Positions 16,077 to 50,782 of a DNA stretch of 64,000 bases are shown piece by piece (within the stretch, counting starts at the first letter, position 1; every line of letters begins with the position of its first letter). The stretch comes from Sinorhizobium fredii. Lineage in GTDB: Bacteria > Pseudomonadota > Alphaproteobacteria > Rhizobiales > Rhizobiaceae. The stretch is taken from the NCBI RefSeq assembly GCF_002944405.1, contig NZ_CP024309.1:1-64000 (forward strand), in the 5' to 3' direction. Below the pieces are notes generated by a model. It had not been told where the DNA came from. It saw only the letters and a list, made by a program, of their open reading frames with translations, and did no database searches. The translations under genes were made by a program, and so were the position numbers.

Positions 16077-16086
16077 TTCCTTGAAT

Positions 16087-16117: not shown

Positions 16118-16153
16118 ATCACTCTTGTCGCAGGTTTTAACTAACAGGCGACT

Positions 16154-16864
16154 TTATTCACCTGTGCCGTCACCGGAGTCTTTATCTTTTCGGGTCTCCG
16201 GCGGAACGAACAGCTTCCGGGCCGGCCGGAGTTTGACCACGCTCCCACCGCCCGGCGAGTCTTGGGGATCGGCGGGAGGCATTTCCGGCTGCGACCCATA
16301 CCCACCCAAAAACTTCTCCAGCGATTCATAAAATACGAAGTCCTTATAGTCCGAACCAATGACGCCGATTGCGATCTCCTCGATCATTCCGGCGCGTTCG
16401 CGATCACGAGCTGTTAGGAACAATGCGAAGATATCCGTCGGCTGTGGACTTTTGTCGTCCATGAAAAGGCTGGACTGAAGGCTGACATTCAGAGTTACGC
16501 CGGCCGCGCGTGACATATTTTTCGGGGGGATCTTTTTGCGTTCCGGCATGGAAGCGAACCCCAAAATAACGCCGGTCTGAGGTCCAACAAATCTGGCGAA
16601 AGGCTGAAAGACCTTGAGATTTGTTCCGACCATTACGCCGTCAGTAAGATACCCGCCGTGAAGCTGCACCACCTCTTCGTAGCCCTGCTCCTGCAAACGA
16701 AAGCGGATCTGCCCCTCGGCTTCCCGGCTGCGTTTCGGATTCAAAGCGAATTCTCGTTGCACGACGTTATTGGCCTTCAATGCTTCAGCGCGAAGCCGAT
16801 CTTCAAGATCCAGCAAAAGATCTTTCGGCAACGCATCGAGAATGGTTTGGCGAACGTCGATCAT
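16154..16864 (-). CDS. Hypothetical partner of the XRE-ImmA protein
   Basis: A 236-aa protein. I chose the ATG at 16864 because it is preceded by GAAAGGGATTCGC, a good ribosome binding site; an upstream ATG at 16900 has none. No family recognised. The N-terminus is helical (IDVRQTILDALPKDLLLDLEDR). The middle is beta-rich with MVGTNLKVFQPFARFVGPQT, and the C-terminus is Pro/Gly-rich and disordered. It lies just upstream of XRE-ImmA on the same strand, 77 bp apart, suggesting an operon and perhaps a protease substrate/partner pair. Confidence 0.7.
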   Translation of the reverse strand: MIDVRQTILDALPKDLLLDLEDRLRAEALKANNVVQREFALNPKRSREAEGQIRFRLQEQGYEEVVQLHGGYLTDGVMVGTNLKVFQPFARFVGPQTGVILGFASMPERKKIPPKNMSRAAGVTLNVSLQSSLFMDDKSPQPTDIFALFLTARDRERAGMIEEIAIGVIGSDYKDFVFYESLEKFLGGYGSQPEMPPADPQDSPGGGSVVKLRPARKLFVPPETRKDKDSGDGTGE

Positions 16865-17105
16865 GCGAATCCCTTTCGTGATGAGGGAAACGATATCCAA
16901 ATTTTCGCGTTTTGCAAGACTGGGCAGAAATTTATCGCGGAAAGCAGGTTTTGCTTAATCCTGCACCGCGTGCTGCGCGAGATTGGACGGTTCGGGAGAT
17001 GCAGGGCGTTTGCTCGGATGATCGATGACGCAGTGGTGAGGTTTTCTAAAGATTGCGACATTTCGAACTCCGCCCGGCAACTTCAGGGCATCACCACGCA
17101 CGGTA

Positions 17106-22361: not shown

Positions 22362-23261
22362 ATGGGGAAAACGCTTTACATCATCGGAAACGGCTTCGAT
22401 CTCCACCACGGAATTCCGTCATCCTATAAGGCGTTCGGAGAGTATCTCCGGCGGTCGGATGCCAAGACCTATGAGGTCGTCGAGAAATACTTCGCGATGG
22501 ATGCTCAGTTCTGGGCCGAATTCGAGGATCGGTTGGCCTATTTCGACAGCGATTCGCTGATCGAGGACGCGTCCAACTTTCTGGTCGGATACGGCGCCGA
22601 CGATTGGAGCGACGCATACCACCACGATTACCAGTACGAGATTCAGCAGGCGGTCGAGGCGATCTCGACGACGTTGCAGTTGCGCTTTGCCGAATGGATA
22701 CGCCAGCTTCCCGTTCCATCGGCTGCTGAGTTCAGCGGGCAGCGCGTTCCGGTGGATCCGTCGGCGGTCTTCCTGAACTTCAACTACACGCCGTCGCTAC
22801 AACGCCTGTACGGGGTTCCCGGCATAAACGTGTTGCACATCCATGGAGCGGCGGCGAACCCAACGGAGACGTTGGTGCTGGGCCATGGATGGGAGCCCGA
22901 TCCAAACCCGGATCCCTACCGTTTCGAGCAGGATCCGGAGGGTGCGGATATGCGTGTCGTCGAAGGGCAGGGGATTGTCGACGACTACTTCAGGGACACG
23001 TTCAAACCCACCGCCAAAGTCATTGAGAAAAACGCAGCCTTCTTCGCCGGGCTGTCGGATGTGGATCGGATTGTTGTGATGGGACATTCGGTGTCGGAGG
23101 TCGATCACCCGTATTTTGAGGAGGTCATCGCGAATATCGACGTCAACCGGGTGCGCTGGACGGTCAGCTATTACGGGGATCTTGCTGGGCTGCGCCAGCG
23201 CATGGAGTCGCTGGGCGTGCCAGATCATCTGACTGAGTATGCATTACTGAATGAGTTTTGA
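22362..23261 (+). CDS. abiH: AbiH-family abortive-infection protein
   Basis: A 299-aa protein starting MGKTLYIIGNGFDLHHGIPSS, the hallmark N-terminus of AbiH (PF14253). Further conserved blocks are FLNFNYTPSLQRLYG, then NVLHIHGA and LGHGWEP, and near the C-terminus RIVVMGHSVSEVDHPYF. AbiH, first described on a lactococcal plasmid, confers phage resistance by an unresolved mechanism. Spaced 57 bp after the small nuclease-like pair on the same strand, with GAAGGG upstream of the start. It may form an operon with them. Confidence 0.88.
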   Translation: MGKTLYIIGNGFDLHHGIPSSYKAFGEYLRRSDAKTYEVVEKYFAMDAQFWAEFEDRLAYFDSDSLIEDASNFLVGYGADDWSDAYHHDYQYEIQQAVEAISTTLQLRFAEWIRQLPVPSAAEFSGQRVPVDPSAVFLNFNYTPSLQRLYGVPGINVLHIHGAAANPTETLVLGHGWEPDPNPDPYRFEQDPEGADMRVVEGQGIVDDYFRDTFKPTAKVIEKNAAFFAGLSDVDRIVVMGHSVSEVDHPYFEEVIANIDVNRVRWTVSYYGDLAGLRQRMESLGVPDHLTEYALLNEF

Positions 23262-36309: not shown

Positions 36310-36699
36310 ATGACAAAGCACCAGATTGAGGTGATCACATCGGTCGAGCGGCGTCGGCGCTGGTCTCGGGAGGAGAAGGAGCGGTTGGTCGCGGCGACAT
36401 TTGAGCCAGGAGCCCGGGTTTCCGAGATCGCGCGATCGGCCGGTATTCATGTGAGCCAGCTTTTCCGCTGGCGCAAGGAGCTCTGCCAGGTATCCGCACC
36501 GTCCGTCCCGCAACTCGTTCCCGTGGAGATCGTCGAGACGCTGCCCGCGCCGGCATCACCGGAGCCGCCGGTCGCTCGATCACGCAAGAAAGCCAGCATG
36601 GTGACGATCGAGCTCGGCGGTGGCCGTCGCCTGCGAGTCGAGAGCGACGTCGATACCGAAGCCTTGGCCCGCATCCTCGATGTTCTGGAGCGACGATGA
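36310..36699 (+). CDS. tnpA: IS66 accessory protein TnpA
   Basis: A 129-aa protein with an HTH (WSREEKERLVAATFEPGARV, then IARSAGIHVSQLFRWRKEL), the IS66 OrfA pattern. The C-terminal half contains VTIELGGGRRLRVESDVDTE. It acts with TnpB and TnpC in transposition. Its stop overlaps the tnpB start by four bases. Confidence 0.93.
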   Translation: MTKHQIEVITSVERRRRWSREEKERLVAATFEPGARVSEIARSAGIHVSQLFRWRKELCQVSAPSVPQLVPVEIVETLPAPASPEPPVARSRKKASMVTIELGGGRRLRVESDVDTEALARILDVLERR

Positions 36700-37043
36700 T
36701 CCCGGTTCCGAGCGGTGTGAAGGTCTGGCTCGCCACGGGCTATACGGACATGCGGAGAGGCTTCCCCGGCCTGTCGCTGCTGGTGCAGGAGACGTTGAAG
36801 CGCGATCCAATGAGCGGCCATCTCTTCGTCTTCCGGGGGCGGAGCGGCGGCCTGATCAAGGTGATCTGGCACGACGGCCAGGGTGCCTGCCTGTTCACGA
36901 AGAAGCTCGAGCGCGGTCGCTTCATCTGGCCGTCGGCGGCCGATGGCACGGTGGTGATCACCCCGGCGCAGCTCGGCTATTTGCTCGAAGGCATCGACTG
37001 GCGAATGCCGCAAAAAACCTGGCGTCCGACGTCGGCGGGATGA
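36696..37043 (+). CDS. tnpB: IS66 accessory protein TnpB
   Basis: A 115-aa protein: VKVWLATGYTDMRRGFPGLS, LFVFRGRSGGLIKVIWHDGQ and LEAIDWRMPQKTW-like ending, all standard for IS66 OrfB. Normal length, intact. It overlaps tnpA by four bases and precedes tnpC by 44 bases. Confidence 0.95.
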   Translation: MIPVPSGVKVWLATGYTDMRRGFPGLSLLVQETLKRDPMSGHLFVFRGRSGGLIKVIWHDGQGACLFTKKLERGRFIWPSAADGTVVITPAQLGYLLEGIDWRMPQKTWRPTSAG

Positions 37044-37087
37044 GCAAAACGCTGGCGTGGCAGGGGCGAATATGATTCCATCCCGCC

Positions 37088-38731
37088 ATGACCGATGCGG
37101 CCGATCAGCTTCCCGACGACCTCGCCAGTGCGCATGCGATGATCCTCGCAGAGCGTGCAGCCCGCCGCGAAGCCGAAGCGCTCGCCGCCCGCGCCCAGGC
37201 GGTGAACTCGCATTCGGATGCACTGATCGCCCGGCTCCGACTCGAGATTGAGAAGCTGAAGCGCGATATCCACGGCAGCCGCTCGGAGCGCAAGGCGCGG
37301 CTTCTCGAACAGATGGAGCTGCAGCTCGAGGAGCTAGAGGCCGACGCCGGCGAAGACGAACTGGCGGCGGAGATGGCGGCTCGCTCCTCGACGGCCGGGG
37401 CCTTCGAGCGCAGGCGTCCGTCGCGCAAGCCGTTTCCCGAGCATCTGCCGCGCGAGCGCGTTGTCGTCGCCGCACCATCAAACTGCCCGTGCTGCGGTTC
37501 AGCCAAGCTGGCAAAGCTTGGCGAGGACATCACCGAGACGCTGGAGGTGATCCCGCGCCAGTGGAAGGTGATCCAGACGGTGCGCGAGAAGTTCTCCTGC
37601 CGCGAATGCGAGAAGATCACACAGCCGCCGGCCCCCTTCCATGTGACGCCGCGCGGCTTTGCCGGGCCGAACCTCTTGGCAATGATCCTGTTCGAGAAGT
37701 TCGGTCAACATCAGCCGCTGAACCGGCAGAGCGAGCGCTATGCCCGCGAGGGCATTGATCTCAGCCTGTCGACGCTTGCCGACCAAGTGGGGGCCTGCGT
37801 CGCGGCGCTGAAGCCGGTGCATGGACTGATCGAGGCGCATGTGCTGGCCGCCGGGCGGCTGCATGGCGACGACACCACCGTGCCGATCCTGGCGAAGGGT
37901 AAGACCGACACCGGGCGCATCTGGACCTATGTCCGGGACGACCGGCCATTCGGTGGGCAATCGCCGCCGGCGGCGCTCTATTATGCCTCGCGCGACCGGC
38001 GGCAGGAGCATCCCGAGCGCCACTTGAAGAGCTTCACCGGCATCCTGCAGGCCGACGCCTATGGCGGCTATAACCCGCTGTTCAAGGTCGATCGCGATCC
38101 CGGTCCGCTGACCCAAGCGCTGTGCTGGGCACATTCACGTCGCAAGTTCTTCGTGCTTGCCGACATCGCCACCCACGCCAAGCGCGGAAGGAACGCCACG
38201 CCGATCTCGCCTGTCGCGCTCGAGGCGGTCAAGCGCATCGATGCGCTGTTCGACATCGAGCGCGAGATCAACGGACTTGCCGCCGACGAACGCCGGCAAC
38301 GCCGCCAGCAGGAAAGCCAGTCGATCGTCGATGCGCTCGAGGAATGGCTGCGCGCCGAGCGGGCGAAGCTATCGCGCAGTTCCCCGGTCGCCGAGCCAAT
38401 CGATTACATGCTGAAGCGCTGGGACGGCTTCACATCCTTCCTTGGCGACGGCCGGATATGCTTGACCAACAACGCCGCCGAACGGGCGCTGCGTGGCTTT
38501 GCCCTCGGCAGGCGGTCATGGCTCTTCGCCGGTTCCGATCGTGGTGCCGATCGCGCCGCCTTCATGGCGACGCTGATCATGACCGCCAAGCTCAACGACA
38601 TCGATCCGCAGTCCTGGCTTGCCGACGTTCTCGCCCACATCGCCGACACGCCGATCACCAGGCTCGAGCAATTGCTCCCGTGGAACTGGGCCGTCAACCA
38701 AAACTGCACCGAATGCGGCAAAGCCGCGTAA
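37088..38731 (+). CDS. tnpC: IS66-family transposase TnpC
   Basis: A 547-aa transposase. A coiled-coil N-terminus (EIEKLKRDIHGSRSERKARL) leads to the zinc-finger CPCCGSAKLAKLG with FSCRECEKI, then the DDE domain with LHGDDTTVPIL, LQADAYGGYNPL and the Glu region GRICLTNNAAERALRGFALG. Length and C-terminus (QNCTECGKAA) are normal, so the protein should be active if its ends are intact. Confidence 0.95.
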   Translation: MTDAADQLPDDLASAHAMILAERAARREAEALAARAQAVNSHSDALIARLRLEIEKLKRDIHGSRSERKARLLEQMELQLEELEADAGEDELAAEMAARSSTAGAFERRRPSRKPFPEHLPRERVVVAAPSNCPCCGSAKLAKLGEDITETLEVIPRQWKVIQTVREKFSCRECEKITQPPAPFHVTPRGFAGPNLLAMILFEKFGQHQPLNRQSERYAREGIDLSLSTLADQVGACVAALKPVHGLIEAHVLAAGRLHGDDTTVPILAKGKTDTGRIWTYVRDDRPFGGQSPPAALYYASRDRRQEHPERHLKSFTGILQADAYGGYNPLFKVDRDPGPLTQALCWAHSRRKFFVLADIATHAKRGRNATPISPVALEAVKRIDALFDIEREINGLAADERRQRRQQESQSIVDALEEWLRAERAKLSRSSPVAEPIDYMLKRWDGFTSFLGDGRICLTNNAAERALRGFALGRRSWLFAGSDRGADRAAFMATLIMTAKLNDIDPQSWLADVLAHIADTPITRLEQLLPWNWAVNQNCTECGKAA

Positions 38732-38750: not shown

Positions 38751-39602
38751 ATGGTGAGACGCGGAAACACGAAATTTTCATTCCAGCAGGTTGACGTTTT
38801 CTCCTCCAAAGCTTTGTTAGGTAACCCGCTGGCGGTTGTCATCGGAGCAGATTCCTTGGCCGCATCTGAGATGGCTGCTTTCGCGCGCTGGACGAACCTT
38901 AGCGAAACGACTTTCCTTCTCCAGCCGAGGTCGGGGGATGCCGACTACCGCGTTCGCATCTTTACGCCTGTTGCTGAGTTGCCCTTCGCGGGCCACCCCA
39001 CTTTGGGGAGTTGCCATGTATGGCTGTCTTCCGGCGGAAGTCCAAAGAGTGGCGACATTGTCCAGGAGTGCGAGGCAGGACTAATCCACATTCGGCGCGA
39101 CAATGAACGACTTTGCTTCGAAGCCCCCGAACTGCGCCGCTCGGGCCCGGTGGAACTCGACATACTGACGCGAGCCATCAAAGGTCTGCGATTGACCTTT
39201 GATGACATCATCGACGCCAACTGGGTGGACAATGGCCCCGGCTGGCTCGCCGTTCTGCTACGCTCCAGGGCTGACGTCCTGGCGTTGCGCCCGGATTTCG
39301 CCGTTCTGGCCGGATTGCGGGTCGGTGTCGTTGCTCCCTGGGATCCTACGAATGATGGGCGGGATGCGGATTTCGAGGTGCGTGCCTTTACCGCGGCCGG
39401 TTTTGAAGATCCGGTAACCGGCAGCTTAAACGCTGGCATCGCTCAATGGTTAATTGGCAACGGCATCGCGCCTCCGTCATACATTGCCAGCCAGGGTACC
39501 GTCCTTGGACGGGAAGGACGTGTTCATGTGGAGCTGGTCGAAGATCAGATTTGGATCGGTGGCGACGTTACGACATGTATCGAGGGCGTTGCAGCTCTTT
39601 AA
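38751..39602 (+). CDS. PhzF-family (phenazine biosynthesis-like) isomerase
   Basis: A 283-aa protein starting MVRRGNTKFSFQQVDVFSSK, then GNPLAVV and LSETTFLLQP with the conserved catalytic Glu. It has FTPVAELPFAGHPTLGSCHV (the 'ELPFAGHPT' signature) and FEDPVTGSLNAGIAQWL near the C-terminus. PhzF-like enzymes are diaminopimelate-epimerase-fold isomerases; most bacterial members have unknown substrates. The ribosome site AGGAC is next to the tnpC stop, so its promoter may now lie within the IS66 element. Confidence 0.88.
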   Translation: MVRRGNTKFSFQQVDVFSSKALLGNPLAVVIGADSLAASEMAAFARWTNLSETTFLLQPRSGDADYRVRIFTPVAELPFAGHPTLGSCHVWLSSGGSPKSGDIVQECEAGLIHIRRDNERLCFEAPELRRSGPVELDILTRAIKGLRLTFDDIIDANWVDNGPGWLAVLLRSRADVLALRPDFAVLAGLRVGVVAPWDPTNDGRDADFEVRAFTAAGFEDPVTGSLNAGIAQWLIGNGIAPPSYIASQGTVLGREGRVHVELVEDQIWIGGDVTTCIEGVAAL

Positions 39603-39786
39603 TTTGAACGCCCCCTAGCGAAATCGAAGCCACCGCGGCCTCGGCCGTATGGTTACGAAAGGGGAGATCCTTCCGGCATTTGTTGGGCATGGCCCAGGAT
39701 CTGAGACGTCAGGTTTTGCATGGCGGCGCCGGAAGGACCACGTCTATCCTGCAAGCATCTGATGACTGGGATTGATCAAAGACGCG

Positions 39787-39927
39787 TCAAAACAGCATCG
39801 GCTGGGTAACCGGCTCGCCTGCTTTGGTGACGATCGTGGCGCCATAGGGCTCACGCGACGTCACGATGATCGCATCGCCGGGAAGCGGCCGGGCGAGCGC
39901 CCTCGCTTCGTCCCCGCATCCAGACAT
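39787..39927 (-). CDS. Small 46-aa protein
   Basis: A short open frame on the minus strand with GGAGGAGACCG immediately before its ATG, a very strong ribosome site. The product starts MSGCGDEARALARPLPGDAI, is compact and mixed beta-like (IIVTSREPYGATIVTKAGEP), and ends TQPMLF. The RBS and sensible composition favour a real gene. No family recognised. Confidence 0.5.
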   Translation of the reverse strand: MSGCGDEARALARPLPGDAIIVTSREPYGATIVTKAGEPVTQPMLF

Positions 39928-39940
39928 CGGTCTCCTCCCT

Positions 39941-40010
39941 GGTTAGTCTAGAAGCAGGACCGGCATTGCTTAATGGGCGGGTCGGCGGTTCTAATCCTCT
40001 CAAGGCGGTT
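39941..40010 (+). other. Possible tRNA-derived remnant
   Basis: The stretch GGTCGGCGGTTCTAATCC resembles a tRNA T-arm, and the preceding ~45 bases have a loosely tRNA-like layout. But the 5' acceptor part and pairing are not convincing, and the anticodon stem is weak. At most a degenerate tRNA fragment, perhaps an old integration site. Confidence 0.2.
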
Positions 40011-40211
40011 ACAATGTTACAACGATCAGCGGCTTACGATTTGTCGTCTCCAAAGCAGTTTGCACCTGATCTTCTCAAGGCATGCGGCCTGGTCCAAAAC
40101 TCCGTCAGTCCTTTGAACAAAGGACTGATTGCTGCCGCCCGCATGTGAGGAGGGCATCTGATCGCAATTTCGCCCCGCATCGCCCGGCTGCGACAACTGT
40201 TTGGGACGTGA

Positions 40212-41891
40212 TCACGAGGCAACCATTTTTCCGGACAGTCGCTCCGTCAGGACGATGGCGCTTCCTATGACCGCTCCGAGGACCAAACCTGTCGGAAGCC
40301 CGTAAATGAATCCGCCTTTCATCATCCCCCAAGGATCGTTTACGCGCGCTTCAAGATACGCAATTACAGCGTGAACGATCCCCATAAGGTAGAGCGGCGC
40401 AAAAACGACTACTGCCATTGCCGCACCAAGTGCGATCGCAAGGAACGCACTGGCTATCGATGCCCAAACACGCCGGCGAGTTAGCCGTTCGAAATCGAAG
40501 TTGACTATCGAAAGAACGATGAACGCTGCACCCAATATGCTACCTGGTAAGAGTCGTTCAGGTGTCATCTGTGGGCGGTTCTCCATAATTCCGAAGTAGT
40601 AGGTCAGGAAAGGCGCAGTAAGGCCTCCTGCGACAGCTCCGCCAACGCAACTGCCCAGAAAAACGCGTGTTGCAACAGCAAACTTGGAAAACCGCAACTG
40701 CCTCCCGACGCCGGCGCAAAAAATAGTAGTGCCCCCCAACGGACACGCTGCAAATGCTGTTCCGTAGGTTATTTCAACCATCAGCTGCCCAAGTGAAATG
40801 TGAGGAAAATCCCACTCGTAGTAATATAACGCGCTCAATGTGGGGGCGGCGAGAAGCGACCCTAAGTAACCGCCTAACAGCCCCTTTTGAAGTGATCTGA
40901 GACTAAGCGCCCACCGTTCTGATGTGATTCGAGGCGCGTTACTGACATTTCCGCGGAGTCTTGAATAGACGCTCTGTACGCCGAAAAGGAGGATGCACAG
41001 CGCGACTAGGGGAAGCATAGTCGCGCCAACAACATAGATCATCTCGCGTGGGAAGAAACTCTCAGCGATCAGGCATGAATAAATGGCAAGCGAGAGAAAT
41101 AGCCCTACGAGTGCCATGAAATTCCCGGCGAATAGGAGCAGTGAGCCCGGATTGAAATAGAATGGTGCCATCAGCGAGGACTGGTCCCAAGTTCGCTGCC
41201 TCCCTTCTGTGGACCTCAGAACGTCTGATCGAATTCTGCTCGTCAGATTCGAAATGGGCAAATCAACCGCATCAAGATTCTTCACAAACGAACTCGTGAA
41301 GGGACTGAGCTCTCCAGTCAGTTCGCCTTCGTAGGCGACATCGCCTGGTGCAGCGGCGAACGCAATAAACGTATTGCTCGTGGCTTTAATCTCGGCAAGC
41401 CCTGTTCCTATGACCGTGTTTCCACCGATTTTGAATTCTTTCTTTGAACTATGTAGGGACAGATCTTTTCCGCCAATGAACTGTCGAGCAGTGGCATTGC
41501 TTCGGCAAGCATCGAGGAGGACTATCCGTACAGCCGAGTCGCAGGTCATTCGATCCAAGATTTTCTGGACACTGATGAGGCGCGCGAGGTTTCCATCGGT
41601 GATTTGATCGAAATCCACCGGAATGATGTAATTCTCGCCATCGATTTGAATTCCATGGCCCGAGTAGTACAAAATGGACACAAGCGTCGAGGGTCGTGAA
41701 ACCCGCTCCAGGAACGCATCGATCGTAGCTGTGATCTGTTCAAAATTGGCGTCGATCAGCAGGTCGACATCAATCTTCAGACTCCTAAAGCTCTTGGCCA
41801 CTTCATCGGCATCTCTGCCAGGGCTATTGAGGCGAAGAGGCCCCGAATAGTTGCCGTTGCCAATCACCAGAGCCTGACTTTTGCTGGACAT
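40212..41891 (-). CDS. Caspase-like (peptidase C14) protease with multiple membrane spans
   Basis: A 559-aa protein. The N-terminal caspase domain (residues ~5-240) has the catalytic dyad His79 in LYYSGHGIQ and Cys129 in VLLDACRS; the nearby NGNYSGPLRLNSPGRDADEV fits the caspase start. From ~residue 250 there are about seven or eight hydrophobic segments, such as LLLFAGNFMALVGLFLSLAI and GGFIYGLPTGLVLGAVIGSA. It is therefore a cytoplasmic protease anchored in the inner membrane. A GGGAGGG ribosome site precedes the ATG. Last gene of the minus-strand lysis-type cluster, 21 bp after the DUF1353 gene. It may process neighbours or act as an effector. Confidence 0.88.
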   Translation of the reverse strand: MSSKSQALVIGNGNYSGPLRLNSPGRDADEVAKSFRSLKIDVDLLIDANFEQITATIDAFLERVSRPSTLVSILYYSGHGIQIDGENYIIPVDFDQITDGNLARLISVQKILDRMTCDSAVRIVLLDACRSNATARQFIGGKDLSLHSSKKEFKIGGNTVIGTGLAEIKATSNTFIAFAAAPGDVAYEGELTGELSPFTSSFVKNLDAVDLPISNLTSRIRSDVLRSTEGRQRTWDQSSLMAPFYFNPGSLLLFAGNFMALVGLFLSLAIYSCLIAESFFPREMIYVVGATMLPLVALCILLFGVQSVYSRLRGNVSNAPRITSERWALSLRSLQKGLLGGYLGSLLAAPTLSALYYYEWDFPHISLGQLMVEITYGTAFAACPLGGTTIFCAGVGRQLRFSKFAVATRVFLGSCVGGAVAGGLTAPFLTYYFGIMENRPQMTPERLLPGSILGAAFIVLSIVNFDFERLTRRRVWASIASAFLAIALGAAMAVVVFAPLYLMGIVHAVIAYLEARVNDPWGMMKGGFIYGLPTGLVLGAVIGSAIVLTERLSGKMVAS

Positions 41892-41912
41892 GCCACCCTC
41901 CCATGGCCATAC

Positions 41913-42476
41913 CTATTGGAAAACGTTCGGATCCGCTTGAAACTTGTTTGGATCTGCCTTCCAAATCGCCCAAGTAATCTTGGGGTCGGGGGGGAAATCT
42001 ACCAAAATCCGCCGTTCACCAGCCGCCCTTCTTTCTGCGTTTTCCCGCCACGAGGCAGCCCCACCCATTCGAACAGCACCATATATTGTAGATGAGGTGG
42101 CCGCCGGCACGTCAAGTTCTTCCATTGCCAGCCGGAGCACGTCGTCAGCTTCTTCACGCTCGCATGGTTGGAACCAATATAGAAAATCGTGAAGCACTGC
42201 GGGATACGTGTACCGAGCCTGTCGGGGTAGAATCGACCAAAGCGGCCGGGGTATGCTTGCCAGATCTGTGACGAATCCTCTCGGCACCTTCACATCTTTC
42301 ACAGTCATCAGGGTTCTTGAAGTTGGCGTCCACTCAAGTAAACGTTCCACGTAGTAGTAGTCCCAATCAGCAAATGGAACGATTGGAACAGGCGGCCCAA
42401 AATACTTGGTCGGCTTCAAAACGAATTTCATATACGATACTAATTCGTCGGCGATATCCGCATTTGACTTCTTCAT
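41913..42476 (-). CDS. DUF1353 family protein
   Basis: A 187-aa protein from the ATG at 42476, which has GAGGGG upstream. The DUF1353 core is VPRGFVTDLASIPRPLWSIL, then YTYPAVLHDFLYWFQP. DUF1353 is known from phages and bacteria next to lysis, tail or peptidoglycan-active genes, but its activity is not established. The conserved His-Asp in 'AVLHDFLY' is suggestive of an enzyme. It is followed after 21 bases by the caspase gene, so the pair is surely co-transcribed. Confidence 0.8.
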   Translation of the reverse strand: MKKSNADIADELVSYMKFVLKPTKYFGPPVPIVPFADWDYYYVERLLEWTPTSRTLMTVKDVKVPRGFVTDLASIPRPLWSILPRQARYTYPAVLHDFLYWFQPCEREEADDVLRLAMEELDVPAATSSTIYGAVRMGGAASWRENAERRAAGERRILVDFPPDPKITWAIWKADPNKFQADPNVFQ

Positions 42477-42761
42477 GTTTTTGCCCCTCGAAGGATTTAT
42501 ACTATGTTCAGTTCCCTGTCGTTCGTCAACTCCATCCCCCGAGATCCCGATATTAAAAAGTGCAGGCTTGTAGACGCTGGAGGTAGTTCGACTGGTTTGG
42601 CTCCCCAACGTGATCTTCAGTATCGAACGGCGTTGCGAGAAGCGGGCTAAGCAAAGGTCCCGGAAGTGACACCTAATTTTTACGGATGCGAACGAGGTGG
42701 ACTTCTCCTCACCTCCAGTACACAGTCCGCCGCGCTTGAGATCTGGCTGGGAACGGCCACG

Positions 42762-44522
42762 CTAGTTCGTAGCGGTCGGAGCTACGAACCCATTTCTCAG
42801 TGCTCGGACCCACTTTTCTATCTTGCCCATTGCGCCCCAGCCAGTCATCGCAGCAAATACTGGGAAGGAAGCTGCCACAAGCTCTCGGCCAAGCCCACCT
42901 CCGGCCTGCGTTGCCGCGGCTGCGGCATTGCCGGCGTTGGCAGCGCCGTCTATGAGCGGCGCGGCAATCGCTGCTACCGGCGCCAGCTGCGGGAGGAAAA
43001 TCGGCAAAATGGTTGTCGCGAGCATGCCGACCACACCGATTGCAGTTTTGCGACCGTCGAGAGCATGCCCAATCGCCTTGCCGAGCGCGCCGTTGACCGG
43101 AGTCAGTTCGGGGTCGCTCGTCGAAGCAAGGATATCCTGTTTCTTGCCATTCAAAATCTCACCATTGAATGTGGTCGGCTCGGCCATAATCATCCGCAGA
43201 AGGTCCTGTAGCCAGATCATGTCAGCCTGGTTCGGCGTCGTTCGTCCGCGCAATGTAGCGGCGAGCGTCAAAATCTGTTGCGCCAGTTGTGCGAGGTTGA
43301 CCTCGGTCGTCATAGGCGTGGGCTGCGGAATGGCGGGCACGGTCGTTTCCTCCTGTGGAATATCTTCCTGATCGACGAGCAAGTAATAGAAAGTCTCCTG
43401 GCTGTGCTTTTTCAGCAGGCCATCCACTAGCGTCTTGAATTCATTCCATTGGTGCGGCGGAACTGTCTGGCAGCCGAGGCTGGAGGTCGTTGTGATGCCG
43501 CCGCGGTGGAGATTGATCCAGAAGCGGCCGCTAGGCGAATCCGTGTCCTCACCGGTCTCGTCGCGGATAACAGTACAGTTGCTATCCTGTCGAAAAGCGG
43601 GATAGGGTCCGTTCTTGCGCGAAAAACCGTGTGGGCCAGGGCGGTATCGGATAGCTTGGCGCGATTTCAACCTTGCAATGCCACGACCGAACCGTCCAGG
43701 GTCGGTATTGCTGTTAAAGTTGTGTACGCCTTCAGGCTCAACGACGAACATGGCATCGTCATAGACCCCGCGATCGTTGGCACCTTCCTTGCCCAACGTG
43801 TTCAGGTAATAGCCCCGAACAGCCACCACTGCCACCGAGTCGTTGTGCCCATCCGCGGGCATGAGGTCGTGGAATTTCTGGAGCACGGCCCGTGTGATCG
43901 CAGCCGTCTGTTTCGGGCGTTGGAGCGGCAGAAGCTGCGAGATCGGATTAGCCAGCAGTTCTTCGGTGGACTGCTCGTCCTCCGAGCTCACCGCACCGCC
44001 AAGGAGCGCTTCGATCTGGTCGGCGGTGAAGATCTCCTCCGGGCCGCCCTTGGTCTCCAGGACACGAACTTTTGGATTGCCATAATCGCCCTTTGAAAAC
44101 ATCGCCGTCTCACGCTCGCGGCGGGCGATAAGGCCCTCAAGGACCTTTCCCTTGCTCTTGTTCCAGCGTGCGAACTCGGCTGCAGCGCCAGCCACGTCTC
44201 CGGTGTTCAGCTTCCGCGTCAACGTGGCGCTTGAAATCGCACCTGTGTTGAAGTGCCAGGAGACGAGAGCATCGAACTGGTGTTGTGAGAGCACGGCTCT
44301 GACCGCAGACTGGACCTGACTTTCTGTCTTGGCGAGGTCGTTGCGGTATATATTTATGGCCTCGGTGAGCGAGATCGTCATTCCGGAGCGGGGGACCGGT
44401 GGACCGGCAGCCGCGGTGTGGCCGGCGCCGATCGTCATGGTGCCCGTACCGTCGTTGTAACCCGCCAAGACGATCGCCTCTTCGGCAAGCATTGCGCAAA
44501 TGCCGCGTAGACTTGTCCTCAC
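42762..44522 (-). CDS. GH24 lysozyme-like protein with a second Cys-containing domain and hydrophobic tail
   Basis: A 586-aa protein from a GTG start at 44522 (GGGAGG ribosome site). The N-terminal T4-lysozyme-like domain has Glu15, then GYNDGTGTMTIGAGHT and ALVSWHFNTGAISSATLTRK. A second domain (~residues 235-390) reads ARLKSRQAIRYRPGPHGFSR, FWINLHRGG, and TTTSSLGCQTVPPHQW. The His and Ser-Leu-Gly-Cys pattern resembles an L,D-transpeptidase-type active site. The last ~110 residues are hydrophobic (GVVGMLATTILPIFLPQLAP), perhaps a membrane insertion segment. No signal peptide. Likely a peptidoglycan-targeting enzyme whose delivery is unclear. Confidence 0.75.
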   Translation of the reverse strand: MRTSLRGICAMLAEEAIVLAGYNDGTGTMTIGAGHTAAAGPPVPRSGMTISLTEAINIYRNDLAKTESQVQSAVRAVLSQHQFDALVSWHFNTGAISSATLTRKLNTGDVAGAAAEFARWNKSKGKVLEGLIARRERETAMFSKGDYGNPKVRVLETKGGPEEIFTADQIEALLGGAVSSEDEQSTEELLANPISQLLPLQRPKQTAAITRAVLQKFHDLMPADGHNDSVAVVAVRGYYLNTLGKEGANDRGVYDDAMFVVEPEGVHNFNSNTDPGRFGRGIARLKSRQAIRYRPGPHGFSRKNGPYPAFRQDSNCTVIRDETGEDTDSPSGRFWINLHRGGITTTSSLGCQTVPPHQWNEFKTLVDGLLKKHSQETFYYLLVDQEDIPQEETTVPAIPQPTPMTTEVNLAQLAQQILTLAATLRGRTTPNQADMIWLQDLLRMIMAEPTTFNGEILNGKKQDILASTSDPELTPVNGALGKAIGHALDGRKTAIGVVGMLATTILPIFLPQLAPVAAIAAPLIDGAANAGNAAAAATQAGGGLGRELVAASFPVFAAMTGWGAMGKIEKWVRALRNGFVAPTATN

Positions 44523-44574
44523 TTCAGCCTCCCATTACTTGAATGGCCTCTTCAAAGCTAAAAAAGCGACGCAT

Positions 44575-46707
44575 TTACTTTTGGACCATGCTTTCCGCCA
44601 CGACCTGCTCGGGCAAGAAAATCCCGTCTTTGCTGACCCGCGCCATCATCCTTGCGTTCGGAGGGCTACCCGCGCCGGGAAAGACCACTTCGAGCGTGTT
44701 GTCTCCATCCAAATCGTCAACAAGTGTCGGGGTCCGCCGTATGAGTTCGAGGCGCTTCTGCTTCAGGATTGGTTGCGGTGTGTTCTGGTCATCCTTGGTC
44801 GCGTTCGGTATCAGCGTCACCGCAGGGATCATCGGCCCGGTGAAAAGACTTTCGGAACAGCGTCCATCGGTTCTGATCTTGAGTGTGGCCAATTCCAACC
44901 CGTAGCCTCCGTTTTCGTCCTTCGTGCCGACGATGCGCGACAAAAGGACGATCGCTTCGTCCGATCCGACGGAAAAAACAATCGGTGGCCTGGCCAGCCA
45001 TGTGCCTTCGAATTTCGGCTGGCACGCCGCGGTGTTCGCTTCGATCAACGGCGCCTCACCCGTGTCGTCGTCCCGTAGCCCCGGCAGGCGCCATTGGCGG
45101 ATCTCCACGCGGCTCACGCCCGTATCGTCGGACTTCCGTATTGCAACCAAGGATTGGCGCTCGCCTGTCCGACCCAAGGCGAAAAGGGGTTCATCGCTTT
45201 CCTGTATGTCGGCGAGCCACACGGAACCGCGCGACCGACCGGTATCATTCTTGGGCCTTGCGGTCTTGCGCGCGATACCGATGCGTCGAACGAGGGCCTT
45301 CGATTCATAGTCCTTGTCCCGCCGCGCCCAGGTCATGAGAGGATCGCGTTCCATGGGTGACTGGAAGACCAGTGGAGCAGCGACGTAGTTGCGATAGACG
45401 TCGCTTTCTTCCTGTTCCTTTCCGGGGGTTTCTTTCGCAAGCTGGTCCGTCACCCGCAGGGGTTCTTGCACCTGGTGCTTGCGGCGTAGCGCCGTACTGA
45501 TGAGAATGTCGCGAAAACAGGGAGCGTTGGCACCGTTTCCGAGGCAGCTGTTCGTTTGCAACGCCATTAAGTGAAGCGTATCTGGCGCAGGCTGCGCGCC
45601 GTGGGCCGCGACAACCTGGGAAAACCCGCCATCGTCGGGACTCCCGGCATTGCCCACTTCGACTACTGCTATGGTACTGCGCGCGCCGCACGGATCGTGG
45701 TCACCGAGCATCTCATCGGTCATGCCGGCGAGGTAGAGGCAGTTCCAATCCTCGTTGGTCGCCCGCCCCGGAGCAATCGCCAGGATGCGGCCGCCGGTTT
45801 CGCTGAGGCCGCGTCGCTGCCACCATACGAACCAGTCTTCCTTCTTGCCGCCATGTGTCGTGGCGACGACAACCGGGGCATTGACGATGTAGGACGGATC
45901 ACCTGGCAGCTTTACGTGGAGCTTAAGCGCGCCAAACTTCGCATGTTTGCTTATTGGAGCTACGGAGACGAACATGCCGGAAGGCCGCATCGAGAACTTG
46001 TAAAGCGCCTTCAGTCCCTGGTGCTTCCTCTCCGGGTCGTAGGCATCCGCAATTCGGTAGACGGCGTAGGAAAGAGATCGAACGGGATAGGGATCGAACT
46101 CGAAATAGGTCGATGCTCTGCCATCAAGTCCTGCCTTGTTTTCGAGGCCCTGCGACAATGCATCGACACTCGGGTTCAGCGGCCGGAATGAATCACTCCC
46201 GCCGGCGCGAACGCCGAGGGTCACGAGCCTGGCATCACGAATGCATTTGCTTTGTTTGGCCTCCATGTCACTTCCCGGTTCCCGCCTCTCGATGAAATAG
46301 CAAAGCCGAAATGCGTGCTCCTGGAGCAGGAAGTCGCAATCGGCTTGGGTGTAGCCATAGGTGGCCGCACCGTGCCTGTAGCAGTAATCGTGCGTGGCAC
46401 AGGCCTGCCGCATCTGGAGGCCGATTGCGTCGCGACCTTCTTTTTGGGGAAAGGCGAGGTCGGCCAAAAGTCTGGGCAGGCTGCAACTCAACCCTTCTCC
46501 CCGTCCGCCGATGATCTGGATATCCGCAGAGGAAAAGGGGATCTGCCCGGAAGTGGGTGGCATCTCCTTTTCCGTCGGCATGGCGGCGTTCGCCAGCACC
46601 TTGTCAGCCAGCAAGCGCCCGAAAAAGTCCATTCGTATGAAGACGGCCGAAACGGCGACGCAGACCAGAAATCCGATGGTTGCCATGAGCAGATAGACGC
46701 GGCGCAT
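44575..46707 (-). CDS. Membrane-anchored phospholipase A2-like protein
   Basis: A 710-aa protein. One N-terminal membrane segment (VYLLMATIGFLVCVAVSAVF) is followed by a short PLA2-like domain with the signature CATHDYCYRHGAATYGY: Cys103, His106, Asp107, Cys109, with further Cys124 and Cys136. This is the Ca-dependent phospholipase A2 active-site motif CxxHDxCY. The remaining ~550 residues show repeated beta-rich segments (IVNAPVVVATTHGGKKEDWF; LVDDLDGDNTLEVVFPGAGS) like a periplasmic FG-GAP or propeller-type domain. It should face the periplasm. It lies between the DUF2235 gene (121-bp gap) and the lysozyme gene (52-bp gap). Confidence 0.75.
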   Translation of the reverse strand: MRRVYLLMATIGFLVCVAVSAVFIRMDFFGRLLADKVLANAAMPTEKEMPPTSGQIPFSSADIQIIGGRGEGLSCSLPRLLADLAFPQKEGRDAIGLQMRQACATHDYCYRHGAATYGYTQADCDFLLQEHAFRLCYFIERREPGSDMEAKQSKCIRDARLVTLGVRAGGSDSFRPLNPSVDALSQGLENKAGLDGRASTYFEFDPYPVRSLSYAVYRIADAYDPERKHQGLKALYKFSMRPSGMFVSVAPISKHAKFGALKLHVKLPGDPSYIVNAPVVVATTHGGKKEDWFVWWQRRGLSETGGRILAIAPGRATNEDWNCLYLAGMTDEMLGDHDPCGARSTIAVVEVGNAGSPDDGGFSQVVAAHGAQPAPDTLHLMALQTNSCLGNGANAPCFRDILISTALRRKHQVQEPLRVTDQLAKETPGKEQEESDVYRNYVAAPLVFQSPMERDPLMTWARRDKDYESKALVRRIGIARKTARPKNDTGRSRGSVWLADIQESDEPLFALGRTGERQSLVAIRKSDDTGVSRVEIRQWRLPGLRDDDTGEAPLIEANTAACQPKFEGTWLARPPIVFSVGSDEAIVLLSRIVGTKDENGGYGLELATLKIRTDGRCSESLFTGPMIPAVTLIPNATKDDQNTPQPILKQKRLELIRRTPTLVDDLDGDNTLEVVFPGAGSPPNARMMARVSKDGIFLPEQVVAESMVQK

Positions 46708-46828
46708 TGACCCGTACCTCCTCGATCGTTCTACCTACCATGACGTCGTCTCGTGCGCTGTTTCATTAGGAACAACTGAAAATTGCGAGCGAGCCGCAAG
46801 ACGAGTTGCGCTGCCGATGATGCGACGC

Positions 46829-49318
46829 TCAATAGCCGCTGACATTCTCCACAGTGACCCGGGCGGCGCCGCTGTTGTTCCGATAGAAGAGATCGTAAAA
46901 TCCCGGTAGGCCAACTGCAGCGTCGTTCAGGTAGAGGTAAAGCCGTCCGGTTTCGCGTGGCGTAAACAGGAAAGCGGCACGCGAAATGTCCTCTGGCTTG
47001 GGGGCTCGCAGCCTGATAGGCACTACCGCCTGCTCATCGGCGCCGCGGCTGCCGATACGGGCGATCAATTGAAAATAAGGCTGTCCCCACCACCTTCTGA
47101 GCGGAACTCCAACGGCTTGTCTGAAGGACCGGATTTTCATTCCCGCTGCGCCAGACCGGATGCTGTCGTCTTTCAACGACGATCCGGGCGGAATGTCGAG
47201 TGTGATCCGGTAGCGCTCTCCTTTAAGGAGAACCATCTGCGTGTCCCAGCACATTGAGGCCGGGTTGAAATCCCCCTGGTCCTTACCCAATATTTCGACT
47301 TTTTCATCAGACGGATTGTTGTCCCCGCAGAAGGCGCCGGCGGCGCTGGCCACATCGACCGACGCCTTGTTGATCAGGAATAGGGCAGCAAGGCCTGCAA
47401 GGCCGAGAGACAGTGCCGGGAAGATATGTTCACGAAGGGCGTTGTAGAGCGCGATCATTTTCGGGTTGGTCCGCACCGACCGCGCAAACCTCAGAAAAAG
47501 CGAACTCGTCAGTCTTTGGCGCTCCCTTTTCATACCGATCATGCCGAGGAAGCACAAAAGCCCAGCCGTCGCGAAAAATGCAGCCGCGATCTGCGTACCC
47601 GTTGCGGCAGCCGCTATCGCAGCAATGAGGGAGATCAGGGTGCCAGAGGCAGCAAGGCGCTTGTGGTGTTCGGCCCGCTCCTTTGCGAAATATGACTGGT
47701 CGCGCCGCCACCTGCCACTGCACCAAGCAATTCGGGCCCGATCGGCTATACGCGTACGAAGAAATGCGCTCAGCCACATCGTGGCCGCCACCAGGGCGGC
47801 AAGTATGGCAGCCGCGGCCGGATTGCGGGCGATTGCATTCAGCCATGGCATGGCAAAACCGGGTGTAAAGAACTCGATAATGCCCGTCAGGCGCCCGACG
47901 ATAGGTACTGCCCCATCTTCCAGCCGGTCCAGCGGACCGGATGATACATATTCGGCGAATAGCGGGTAGCAGGCGACGAGCAGGACGAGGAACAGGAGCA
48001 CGTAATAGACGGCGCGGCGCCACCAGATCGTATCGTGCATAACGGCGAAGCGTTCAAGCTGATCTGCCCCGTCTGCCGCTTGACGCTCCCGCAGCTCGGC
48101 GAGCACCATTTGGGCACGAGCCTGGAGAGCGGAGCAGTTTGGCGAAGGTGCATCCCCAGTCCGCGGCGTTAGGAAAGGCACGACAGTGCCGTTCGGCATT
48201 CGAATCCGAAAATCGAGCGGCAGGGCGAGAGGCGCGTAGCCGTCGGAACCGTCTGCCATGCGAAACAGAACGCTCCAATCTACCAGCGGGGCGAATTGGC
48301 CCAATAGAGTTTTGCTGTCACGCGGATGGTAGCGATAGAAAAAGCCGAGCTTCGCGCGGCTATCGTAGATCCGGCCGTTCTCCGAGGCGAGATCGGCGTA
48401 TCTCGCGACCGTATCGGCCTTGAATCTCAGCCCGGTAATTTGAGCTTCCTCTATGAGCCAGCACAAAGGCACATAGGCCAGGCGGTCATCCGGATAGCCG
48501 CCGCCGATATTCGAGTGCACACCGGCGAACCATAGCTGGCATAGGCGGTCCGGACCTATTTCGTTGCCATCGGCACCCGTCGGGCTCCATGGAATGGGGA
48601 AAAACGTCCGACGCTCGTCATCGAGGCTGAGTGCTTGACGGGCCCGCTCGACACACGGCAGCAGGTGAGATTTCTCGAACGTCATCGGCCAGATCCACCG
48701 GTTGACCGCCCGGGTCAACTCATCGATCGGCAAACCATATGCCCCAACCGTGTCCCACACGCCGACAAACGCGATCTTCACCTCTTCGGCCGAGCGAGGG
48801 CCGGAGCGGGGCCGGACCTCATCGTACGAGCGGCTCCCCGTCAACCAGTTCCAGCGCTTGACGGCTGCGTCCCGCAAGCTCCGCCCCCATTGCGTCCAGG
48901 GCAGTCGTGACGGAAATGCTTTCTTGCGATACGCCCGGTAGGCCGCAAGCGCGTTGCGGTCAAGTTCCTCGTGCGATTGGAAATCGACCAGTCCCTCGCG
49001 AGCGACCAGCCCGACCAGCAGACGGATCGTGAAGGCGCCGCGGCTAAAACCGAAGACATGTATCCTGTCGCCAGGCTGGAAATTCAAGCAGAGGAACCTG
49101 TAGAGAGCGATGACACGTCGCTTCACCCCGAAGCCAAGCGCCAGGCCGATCACCTCGAAGGGTTTGAACGAGGAGGTTCCGACCCCGTCGCTGAAGCTTG
49201 CGATCTGATCCTGCTCACCGAGATCGAGCGCTTCGTAGAGCCGCCACACATTCGTCTTGAACAGTTTCGCAGCGCTATTGCCCGTTCCGTCTGCAAGAAG
49301 CACGATGTTCTTCTGCAT
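46829..49318 (-). CDS. DUF2235 (Tle1-like) lipase with membrane spans
   Basis: An 829-aa protein. The alpha/beta hydrolase DUF2235 domain covers ~residues 1-360: NIVLLADGTGNSAAK, the nucleophile Ser92 in HVFGFSRGAFTIR, the Asp in AFVGVWDTVGAYG, and the His in LWFAGVHSNIGGGY. Type VI effectors of the Tle1 class share this domain. Here four or so transmembrane segments follow (RAVYYVLLFLVLLVACYPLF; LAASGTLISLIAAIAAAATG), then a beta-rich C-terminal part. First gene of the minus-strand cluster, GGGGAC before the ATG. No T6SS, VgrG or PAAR gene is visible, so secretion is not supported here. Confidence 0.85.
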   Translation of the reverse strand: MQKNIVLLADGTGNSAAKLFKTNVWRLYEALDLGEQDQIASFSDGVGTSSFKPFEVIGLALGFGVKRRVIALYRFLCLNFQPGDRIHVFGFSRGAFTIRLLVGLVAREGLVDFQSHEELDRNALAAYRAYRKKAFPSRLPWTQWGRSLRDAAVKRWNWLTGSRSYDEVRPRSGPRSAEEVKIAFVGVWDTVGAYGLPIDELTRAVNRWIWPMTFEKSHLLPCVERARQALSLDDERRTFFPIPWSPTGADGNEIGPDRLCQLWFAGVHSNIGGGYPDDRLAYVPLCWLIEEAQITGLRFKADTVARYADLASENGRIYDSRAKLGFFYRYHPRDSKTLLGQFAPLVDWSVLFRMADGSDGYAPLALPLDFRIRMPNGTVVPFLTPRTGDAPSPNCSALQARAQMVLAELRERQAADGADQLERFAVMHDTIWWRRAVYYVLLFLVLLVACYPLFAEYVSSGPLDRLEDGAVPIVGRLTGIIEFFTPGFAMPWLNAIARNPAAAAILAALVAATMWLSAFLRTRIADRARIAWCSGRWRRDQSYFAKERAEHHKRLAASGTLISLIAAIAAAATGTQIAAAFFATAGLLCFLGMIGMKRERQRLTSSLFLRFARSVRTNPKMIALYNALREHIFPALSLGLAGLAALFLINKASVDVASAAGAFCGDNNPSDEKVEILGKDQGDFNPASMCWDTQMVLLKGERYRITLDIPPGSSLKDDSIRSGAAGMKIRSFRQAVGVPLRRWWGQPYFQLIARIGSRGADEQAVVPIRLRAPKPEDISRAAFLFTPRETGRLYLYLNDAAVGLPGFYDLFYRNNSGAARVTVENVSGY

Positions 49319-49942
49319 GGCATGATGTCCCCAACGAAATGACCGATGCGACCATGTCTATGCGGCCCACTGTGCGCCGGATGTCCGATCTTGGTCTGAG
49401 GGCCTACTTGTTTGTTATCCATGCACCCCACACTTCGGCCGCCGCGGGCGTTGAAGTCACAAACCTCCCTTGGCGATTTTGCCGCGACAAAGCGGCTCCT
49501 ATTGCGCGTCAACATCAGCTGCGCGCGTTGGCATTCGCTTGTTCAGATATGTCCTGCGATATCGGGTCTCGCGCCTGTAGCCTTCGCTGGAACGCAGAAA
49601 CTGACGCATCTCTGTCTGCGCATTAGACTAGAAATTTCAGTATAAAATGAACTAGAAATATATACGCCTGAGATTGCGATATGGCAAGCTACGAAACTTT
49701 AAAGAGTGCAACGGGCGATAGCGGGCAGGCAACACCTCGCGGTACCGAACCGGAGGTGCGAAACATAATTGATTGCGTGGTTTTGCAGAGCCGCCTCCAA
49801 GAGGTCTGAAGAGAAGAGACGTCGGGCTTGCCTATGGTATGGTCATGTTCTGTGCTTCAAAAGTCGCATAATGTATCGACCGGAACCGGATGCGGTGCAT
49901 GTAGCAGGGCCATTGGGGCGTGAAGCGATCCGCTGTGTTCTG
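49319..49942. other. Upstream region of the lytic cluster, no gene recognised
   Basis: About 620 bp. The segment near 49630-49680 is AT-rich (TATAAAATGAACTAGAAATA) and could hold a promoter. Short open frames are present but none has motif support. Confidence 0.45.
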
Positions 49943-50242
49943 CTAGCCGGTGGCGACGGCGGTTTCTGAGTGCCGAGATGAGACCGTCGTGATTTTTTGG
50001 CCGACCCACGCAGAAAGGTCGGCCCAAAGCTGCTGATCCAGGCCCACTTGGCGAGCAATGTCGATGATCTCCTGATAGGAGATCGGCGTGATTGCGGCCT
50101 GGCCGCCCAACCTGGCATCGAACAGGTCCAGTTTTGCCTTCCGAGCCGTCGGAAAACTTGGATGGTCGGCAAAGGTGGCAACCGCAGCGGCGTGGAGGTT
50201 GCGGTGCTTGCCAATTACGGCCGCCAAAACCGCTTTACGCAT
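49943..50242 (-). pseudogene. C-terminal fragment of an unidentified protein
   Basis: A 99-aa frame reading HRNLHAAAVATFADHPSFPT, KLDLFDARLGGQAAITPISY and QEIIDIARQVGLDQQLWADL. The composition and even coding look like part of a real protein, but it starts abruptly and has no clear ribosome site. It may be the end of a restriction- or stress-associated gene; family not certain. Confidence 0.4.
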
Positions 50243-50411
50243 CCATTGATAGGCGTCGCCGGCGAAAGTGCAGGGTGCATGCTCAGCGGCCGGTTTAGCC
50301 GCGCATTGTCAAGCTTGGGGATCACGGTGAGGACGAGGCATTGTTCGCCGACTACCAGAGGGAAAACATGCTGCTCTGGTCAGGAGTTTGAGAAGGGTAT
50401 GGTCCGAAAGG

Positions 50412-50782
50412 AGATTTTGAGATCGAGCGATTTCGGCGAGTTTTCGAGCAGCACGGCGTCGACGCCGATCCCGAAGCCGCAAGCGCACGCTATCTGCAGT
50501 TCCTACCGGAAACTGTCTTGCTGGTGGAGGGCGCGGCCGAAATCTGCGAGAGGTTAGCTGGCGTAGGCGAGGTCAGGATCATCACCAACGGGATTGAGGC
50601 GGTCCAGGCGAAGCGCCTTGAAATAATAGTCGGTGACCGACTGGATGCGGACATTCTTGGGGCAAACCAGTTCGGGCATCGAGAGCTGTTGGTTTAACCC
50701 GCTGCGCGCGGAGAACTGGAGCTCGGCGGTGCCAACGATTCAAGTAGCGCGGCTCAGCGAAATTGCTGTTCGACTTGCGGGC
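50412..50782 (+). pseudogene. HAD-superfamily nucleotidase (YjjG-like) with internal deletion and frameshift
   Basis: The frame from ~50412 reads FEIERFRRVFEQHGVDADPE, then LVEGAAEICERLAGVGEVRI and ITNGIEAVQAKRLE (HAD motif II). It jumps straight to IIVGDRLDADILGANQFG (motif III/IV), so ~60 residues between are missing. The last part (CWFNPLRAENWSS and TIQVARLSEI) continues in another frame. The N-terminal nucleophile motif is also absent. Non-functional. Confidence 0.7.

Follow-up and report, generated by a model that had tools for sequence, protein, structure and literature searches.

The first 64,000 nucleotides of contig NZ_CP024309.1 from Sinorhizobium fredii (assembly GCF_002944405.1), here called the window, carry five adjacent genes on the minus strand at 40212..49318. 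As judged from sequence, the products are three phospholipase-type enzymes, a muramidase and a transmembrane caspase: in the order of transcription, a DUF2235 lipase, a protein resembling phospholipase A2 (PLA2), a GH24 muramidase, a DUF1353 protein and the caspase. This cassette is tentatively read, at somewhat less than even confidence, as a unit for envelope lysis, built of modules, that lies in an accessory region rich in defence genes, is gated by the membrane caspase and is probably directed at the cell that makes it. The theme of lipase beside muramidase is well supported by comparison of loci; the caspase would be the switch, the producing cell the target, the enzymes would act jointly and the purpose would be defence. 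The evidence consists of protein families, intact active-site residues, predicted hydrophobic segments, purifying selection on the first three genes, wall hydrolases that recurrently sit beside lipases, and the recurrent proximity of caspases to alpha/beta-hydrolase-like proteins, including one fusion. Similar kinds of gene occur in other combinations in related bacteria, which suggests a switchable kit for envelope breakdown.

All five genes are intact and run without interruption on the one strand, as judged by open reading frames (ORFs) and Pfam matches. The initial annotation had reported intergenic gaps of 121, 52, 285 and 21 base pairs (bp) and the motifs GFSRG, SGHG, DACR and CxxHDxCY, and all of these were recovered, the 285-bp gap on the assumption that the DUF1353 gene starts at 42476. 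Hydropathy predicts hydrophobic segments in four of the five proteins. The DUF2235 (Tle1-like) lipase (46829..49318, minus strand; 829 amino acids, aa) matches PF09994, T6SS_Tle1-like_cat, with an E value of 7.4e-63. Its N-terminal alpha/beta hydrolase has GFSRG at residue 90, so that the Tle1-type catalytic domain and its GxSxG motif are both present, and five hydrophobic segments are predicted within residues 431-649; the C-terminal domain carries no Pfam name. Among the loci compared (L numbers; genomes have G numbers), this long DUF2235 gene is intact in the window, in L036 (81%) and in L051 (94%), survives as fragments in L049 and L050, and was not matched in L033-L035.

The PLA2-like protein (44575..46707, minus strand; 710 aa) has no Pfam match of its own and was characterised through an alignment of 29 members chosen among 120 of at least 167 matches. 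It carries the motifs CxxHDYCY and CD, and H106, D107, D125 and the cysteines are invariant in 29/29 of the aligned proteins; with the HD pair, the distal Asp and the cysteines in place, it is predicted to resemble the secreted PLA2 superfamily. Weak Pfam matches are scattered among the 29 members, to PLA2G12 in seven (best 0.05), to Phospholip_A2_3 in one (0.0027) and to FG-GAP in seven (best 0.0056), with none of the three in the window copy. The FG-GAP-like region is probably the C-terminal part of the protein. A profile of the family found no match in the PDB. A hydrophobic N-terminal segment is present in 28 of the 29 relatives and a lipobox pattern in nine, so the PLA2-like domain probably lies in the periplasm.

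The GH24 muramidase (42762..44522, minus strand; 586 aa) has three parts and matches Phage_lysozyme (PF00959, 5.6e-34) and a PHROG endolysin (1.8e-40). In the catalytic domain (44109..44480, minus strand; residues 15-138, Pfam), E15, D24 and T30, the last located by eye, follow what we take to be the E-D-T spacing of T4-type lysozyme, as expected of a GH24 endolysin. E15 and D24 each occur in 34/44 aligned rows, a set that includes proteins with other catalytic domains. The constant middle domain (43308..43940, minus strand; residues 195-405) matches phrog_3000, a family of unassigned function; H339, S347, S348, G350 and C351 are found in 44/44 rows, that is, in the window protein and 43 chosen from at least 88 relatives. 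The middle or C-terminal part is common to at least 88 proteins, whose precomputed domains include PF00959 (GH24), PF00182 (GH19), PF01832, which we take to be a glucosaminidase, and PF05838, presumably GH108. No Pfam relative of the middle domain was found, and its sole PDB match has an E value of 0.98. An identity as a YkuD L,D-transpeptidase was rejected, given that comparison with 11 of the 17 YkuD domain matches from the window genome gave an hhalign probability of 0.24% and aligned an SxGC-like motif alone. The C-terminal segment (42783..43085, minus strand; about residues 480-580, with a hydrophobic stretch at 493-511) recurs in the alpha/beta-hydrolase-like neighbour of a GH24 homologue at L069 (44% over 94 residues, E 2e-23), and alignment of the GH24 tail with that of a Mesorhizobium muramidase (L015) fails.

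The DUF1353 gene spans 41913..42608 on the minus strand, or ends its 5' side at 42476 when read from the ATG that fits the Rhizobium ruizarguesonis homologue (187 aa); its product matches PF07087 (6.9e-22) and has no hydrophobic segment predicted by hydropathy. According to a recent paper, the family includes TtaP, a PLA2 proven by experiment, with catalytic residues H70/D71/D85 (JBC 2024, PMC11525133). The window protein has HD followed by D at +15, as does TtaP, and the copy at L066 likewise (counted by eye). Given the activity of TtaP and the retained His/Asp spacing, DUF1353 can now be named a PLA2 type, and the window protein is by its motifs a member of this PLA2-containing family with the TtaP catalytic spacing. 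Two other DUF1353-type proteins (L051 4211-4894 and L100 11678-12721) keep HD and have His at +15 instead of Asp (by eye). The HD motifs of the PLA2-like and DUF1353 proteins can be aligned, and because the hhalign probability is 2.3% with a three-sequence profile, common descent of the two was set aside.

Bacterial caspases are widespread, and few have known targets. The membrane caspase of the window (40212..41891, minus strand; 559 aa) joins a Peptidase_C14 domain (41157-41876, minus strand; PF00656, 2.2e-30) to a C-terminal part (40215-41129, minus strand) that hydropathy predicts to be transmembrane and multi-helix. The H79/C129 dyad of C14 peptidases is present in all 21 aligned membrane caspases, comprising 20 chosen from at least 43 relatives of the transmembrane part and the R. 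ruizarguesonis copy. Thus conservation of active-site residues in homologues, on which the initial annotation had staked its case, was borne out both here (21/21) and for the PLA2-like protein (29/29). The protein is the sole C14 match in its own genome; it is matched in 7/33 genomes of the genus, beyond the C14 domain in its own genome only. Profile searches for the transmembrane caspase, with at most three candidates scored per genome, returned one of 397 genomes of the order (its own) and two of 394 of the family (its own and G141). It does not qualify as an EACC1-type caspase, given that it scores 33.6 bits against the NCBIfam caspase_w_EACC1 cut-off of 140. In a separate observation, all seven genus genomes (of 33) that have a type VI sheath gene also carry a C14 match some 20-23 kb away from one of its copies (G008, G011, G012, G021, G022, G023 and G029); the caspase in those genomes may belong to the type VI locus.

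The pairing of lipase and muramidase recurs. A search of 60 genomes, 33 of them from the genus and including the window's own, found the PLA2-like gene in five of the 33, with GH24 adjacent in all five. Full-length GH24 occurs in seven of the 33, and the two that lack the PLA2-like gene have DUF2235 beside GH24; in the family, GH24 was found in 4/394 genomes. The full-length GH24 loci compared number 14, with plasmid records included (the window, L033-L036, L049-L053 and L067-L070), and a lipase-type gene adjoins GH24 in every one: PLA2-like in eight, short DUF2235 in four, patatin-like in one and alpha/beta-hydrolase-like in one. For the last of these, all Pfam matches fall below the cut-off (best Thioesterase 0.00084, Lipase_3 0.0063). 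Loci were dropped where they were duplicate stretches (L006-L008, L054, L078), lacked the tail at a contig edge (L071) or held a remnant (L066), and plasmid matches H8, H11 and H13-H15 and the contigs of the at least 88 domain-sharing proteins were left out. Because many of the loci are close relatives, the independent evidence is four arrangements, not 14. Long ORFs upstream of the PLA2-like gene in L034 (756 aa) and L035 (628 aa) resemble antisense frames and were discarded.

Among 84,980 species genomes, a scan restricted by pattern located 27 PLA2-like loci, Sinorhizobium included. Beyond Sinorhizobium, 13 long-form loci were compared (L009-L020 and L055), leaving out the more distant L021-L032. 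A wall-hydrolase match lies no more than two genes from the PLA2-like gene in five of the 13, with three above the Pfam cut-off, namely Muramidase (4.1e-37, L015), Amidase_2 (4.7e-9, L016) and VanY (6.4e-6, L010), and two below it, GH75 (L013) and GH19 (L014). No wall hydrolase was recognised in the other eight, where one or two neighbours were scanned in seven and none in L020. One of these eight, L012, has a DUF2235 protein with a lipobox (by eye) encoded divergently to the PLA2-like gene.

Caspases also recur near such genes. Directly after the core, S. meliloti strains BL225C and ml28 carry an alpha/beta-hydrolase-like gene (AHSAG; DUF900 0.02, under the cut-off), then a caspase of another kind, with the motifs AGHG and DCCR, and then pYEATS; BL225C also has, some 0.5 kb upstream, a divergent gene of the DUF1353 type. 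In R. ruizarguesonis TP15 (L066), the order is a peptidoglycan-binding protein, a membrane protein, DUF1353 (58-60% identity) and an adjoining transmembrane caspase (60%). The peptidoglycan-binding protein has weak similarity to NlpC/P60 (0.17) and is a putative wall hydrolase, and about 9 kb further on lie remains of GH24 and a gene for a patatin-like protein. The surrounding region of plasmid pRlX4 (L066 4847-44559) is about 40 kb long and rich in hydrolases, with two caspases, a CHAT protein, an alpha/beta hydrolase and an M15 peptidase in the record annotation; its patatin-like protein falls just under the Pfam cut-off.

In Mesorhizobium genome G141, which besides the window's is the sole genome with a PLA2-like gene in a 297-genome family sample, a 1064-aa protein fuses a caspase (Peptidase_C14 1.7e-27), transmembrane segments and an alpha/beta-hydrolase-like part (GHSYG; DUF900 0.002, below cut-off). 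The fusion is 27% identical to the window caspase over the transmembrane part, and sits on another contig than the PLA2-like and muramidase genes of G141. The stretch L098 9725-17020 encodes the fusion and, after it, a protein of 424 aa, a CHAT protein and a product of 462 aa in which SHG and CC motifs occur. In G013, an alpha/beta-hydrolase-like gene and a caspase precede a DUF1353 gene by about 4.5 kb (by eye), with transposase-like remnants nearby, on a different contig from the PLA2-GH24 pair of that genome. As a fixed unit, the five-gene cassette of the initial annotation does not stand, since the genes are not neighbours in that order in any other genome found. As a shared module it survives in part: the envelope-hydrolase theme and the caspase linkage recur in other arrangements, not as the exact cassette.

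The cassette itself is not uniform. Third-position guanine-cytosine (GC) content is 0.52 for DUF1353 and 0.56 for the caspase, as compared with 0.68-0.70 for the other three genes, and this lower value suggests two modules of different origin, DUF2235-PLA2-GH24 and DUF1353-caspase. Ratios of nonsynonymous to synonymous substitution (dN/dS) for the three core genes against relatives are 0.11-0.18, which indicates that the first module is under purifying selection in Sinorhizobium. The two modules are separated by the 285-bp gap (42477..42761, minus strand), for which the initial annotation had suggested a second promoter. A promoter-like site matching at 9/12 positions does lie at 42529-42501 on the minus strand, but the region holds four such sites against 3.8 expected by chance, so the scan lends the idea no support. 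No RNA families were found within 39500-50500, and repeats around the cassette are not notable. An origin as a prophage remnant was rejected, given that PHROG matches are limited to GH24 and DUF1353, with none for the other three proteins.

The surroundings were scanned with PADLOC for ten chosen genes of the window. An AbiH abortive-infection gene (22362-23258; Pfam 4.6e-75) lies about 17 kb from the cassette, and a pair resembling RmrA (helix-turn-helix and M78 peptidase) and RmrT (14871-16900; PADLOC 2e-206 and 1.9e-97) about 23 kb away. Two convergent genes at 9934-11693 match the PADLOC models 'cll' and 'beta' (Pfam Beta_protein 1.2e-35); the accessions of these models are numerically close to that of the 'caspase' model. 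Elsewhere, PADLOC finds IetAS about 5 kb from the core in L049, and Drt8 (L012) and a PifA-like NTPase (L055) lie beside the PLA2-like gene. At the Hydrogenophaga locus L012 (8375-15128), three genes adjoin: DUF2235, PLA2-like and one that fuses a reverse transcriptase to a nucleosidase (Drt8, PADLOC 8.9e-98). The setting fits a defence island, though one would be expected on accessory replicons anyway. Transposase genes, presumably of the IS66 type, lie at 36310-38731, about 1.5 kb past the caspase end of the cassette.

Under the proposed reading as a caspase-gated lysis unit, the first module (DUF2235, PLA2-like and GH24) would attack phospholipids and peptidoglycan, and the second would supply another PLA2, DUF1353, along with the transmembrane caspase. 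The enzymes would start out inactive, tethered to the membrane or mislocated. A signal at the inner membrane, such as phage infection or envelope stress, would be sensed by the membrane caspase or relayed to it, and its protease domain would then cut an enzyme, an anchor or an inhibitor. The phospholipases and the muramidase would jointly break down the envelope of the cell that made them, and its lysis would limit phage spread. A more specific and rather doubtful proposal is that a transmembrane caspase licenses interchangeable phospholipases and peptidoglycan hydrolases, giving a self-destruct lysis in which membrane and wall dissolve at once and which needs neither a gasdermin nor a holin pore of its own.

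Several observations weigh against this scheme. The full five-gene order is seen in the window alone, base composition points to separate origins of the two modules, and the transmembrane caspase is absent from four of the five genus genomes with PLA2-GH24, whose core is maintained in its absence. The analysis recognised no cleavage site, sensor or inhibitor, and GH24 has no N-terminal hydrophobic segment that would account for its route to the wall. PADLOC matches the caspase alone of the five proteins, and weakly (4.8e-8), and the nearby defence genes are weak evidence, given that such genes are common on accessory replicons and those of the window were hand-picked. In the TtaP study, the closest case with an experiment, deletion of ttaP left both toxin secretion and measured envelope integrity unchanged (PMC11525133), a result that, by analogy, would make it less likely that DUF1353 on its own acts strongly on the envelope.

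The main rival, although unlikely, is a release module resembling type 10 secretion, in which the muramidase and phospholipases would open some cells to let out cargo and the caspase would time the event. It takes this place because the typhoid islet also has a muramidase together with a DUF1353 PLA2; that muramidase is phage-type, and the authors of the study favour a secretion-related role for the PLA2 (PMC11525133). The likeness of GH24 to phage endolysins in PHROG also fits, together with a match to a gene-transfer-agent endolysin that is below cut-off. Of the parts expected for type 10 release, a wall hydrolase is present and GH24 has a C-terminal hydrophobic stretch, but Pfam recognised neither a separate holin nor a cargo gene among the five proteins, and TtaP is neither required for toxin secretion nor itself secreted (PMC11525133). 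A set of antibacterial effectors aimed at rival cells, reaching them through contact or when the producer lyses, is more improbable still. The DUF2235 domain does belong to the type VI effector family Tle1. Polymorphic toxins have a constant domain with swapped catalytic domains, and the constant domain of the GH24 family, with its exchanged catalytic domains, has a similar layout. However, a search for the type VI sheath (TssC/VipB, PF05943) gave no match in the window genome (G000; 6.56 Mb, 4 contigs, rated 100% complete; the window opens a contig of 499,999 bases), while the same search was positive in Escherichia coli, one of 14 controls. Type VI delivery is therefore unlikely and was rejected for this genome, and the sheath gene occurs in one of the seven genus genomes with full-length GH24. 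In addition, none of the five was recognised as an immunity gene, no systematic search having been made for one, and hydrophobic segments in four of the five proteins are unlike soluble injected effectors.

The genes may instead have come together by chance at a hot spot of accessory genes, where a DUF1353-caspase insert landed beside an unrelated lipase-muramidase core; this too carries a low probability. The difference in third-position GC between the modules and the failure to find the exact order elsewhere are as it would predict, and reading the flanks of the eight PLA2-GH24 loci shows the caspase to be absent in five and a DUF1353 match in six. Chance does not readily account for a second type of caspase at the same place in BL225C, along with the divergent DUF1353-type gene, for the DUF1353-caspase pair of TP15, which follows a different putative wall hydrolase, or for the caspase fusion of G141 and the locus in G013.

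A membrane caspase that has lipases and a wall hydrolase as neighbours, and a relative joined to a lipase-like domain, makes caspase-switched envelope lysis directly testable. The arrangement would also give a shared context to DUF1353, to DUF2235 outside type VI secretion and to the unnamed PLA2-like family. Among the titles and openings of abstracts listed, with subscription journals mostly outside the coverage, no description of this gene combination appears. Its elements have precedents, given that caspases with alpha/beta hydrolases, and membrane caspases, are already known. A 2012 survey of bacterial caspases mentions one operon in which a caspase gene is accompanied by an amidase (PMC3501461). 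The vWA-MoxR/VMAP conflict systems hold alpha/beta-hydrolase-caspase pairs (eLife 2020, PMC7159879), and the BL225C locus and the G141 fusion resemble them in joining a caspase-superfamily protease to a neighbouring alpha/beta hydrolase. The cassette differs in that MoxR, vWA and VMAP are absent from the Pfam matches of its five proteins, and it adds a wall hydrolase and PLA2 families. The two-gene EACC1-caspase system of the same paper (PMC7159879) likewise has a membrane-associated caspase, but the cassette caspase is under the score cut-off and its 5' gene is DUF1353, which has no predicted hydrophobic segment.

Proteases are also required for lysis in other systems. LypABC requires its peptidase domains for lysis, and the effectors of CARD-NLR systems are reported to include phospholipases (PMC13236601). 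The cassette differs in having a C14 caspase as its protease, and its five proteins show no NLR ATPase, CARD or gasdermin among their Pfam matches. The Tle1 effectors of type VI secretion share the DUF2235 catalytic domain, but the window genome is without a sheath gene and the window protein has five predicted hydrophobic segments. The typhoid islet has a comparable pairing, although its muramidase presumably belongs to a different family from the GH24 enzyme. There, the muramidase TtsA releases typhoid toxin, and TtsA and TtaP join a phage-type muramidase to a DUF1353 PLA2 as the cassette does, whereas the cassette is without recognised toxin subunits and has extra lipases and a caspase (PMC11525133). 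The pairing of muramidase and PLA2 in the islet would join a wider theme.

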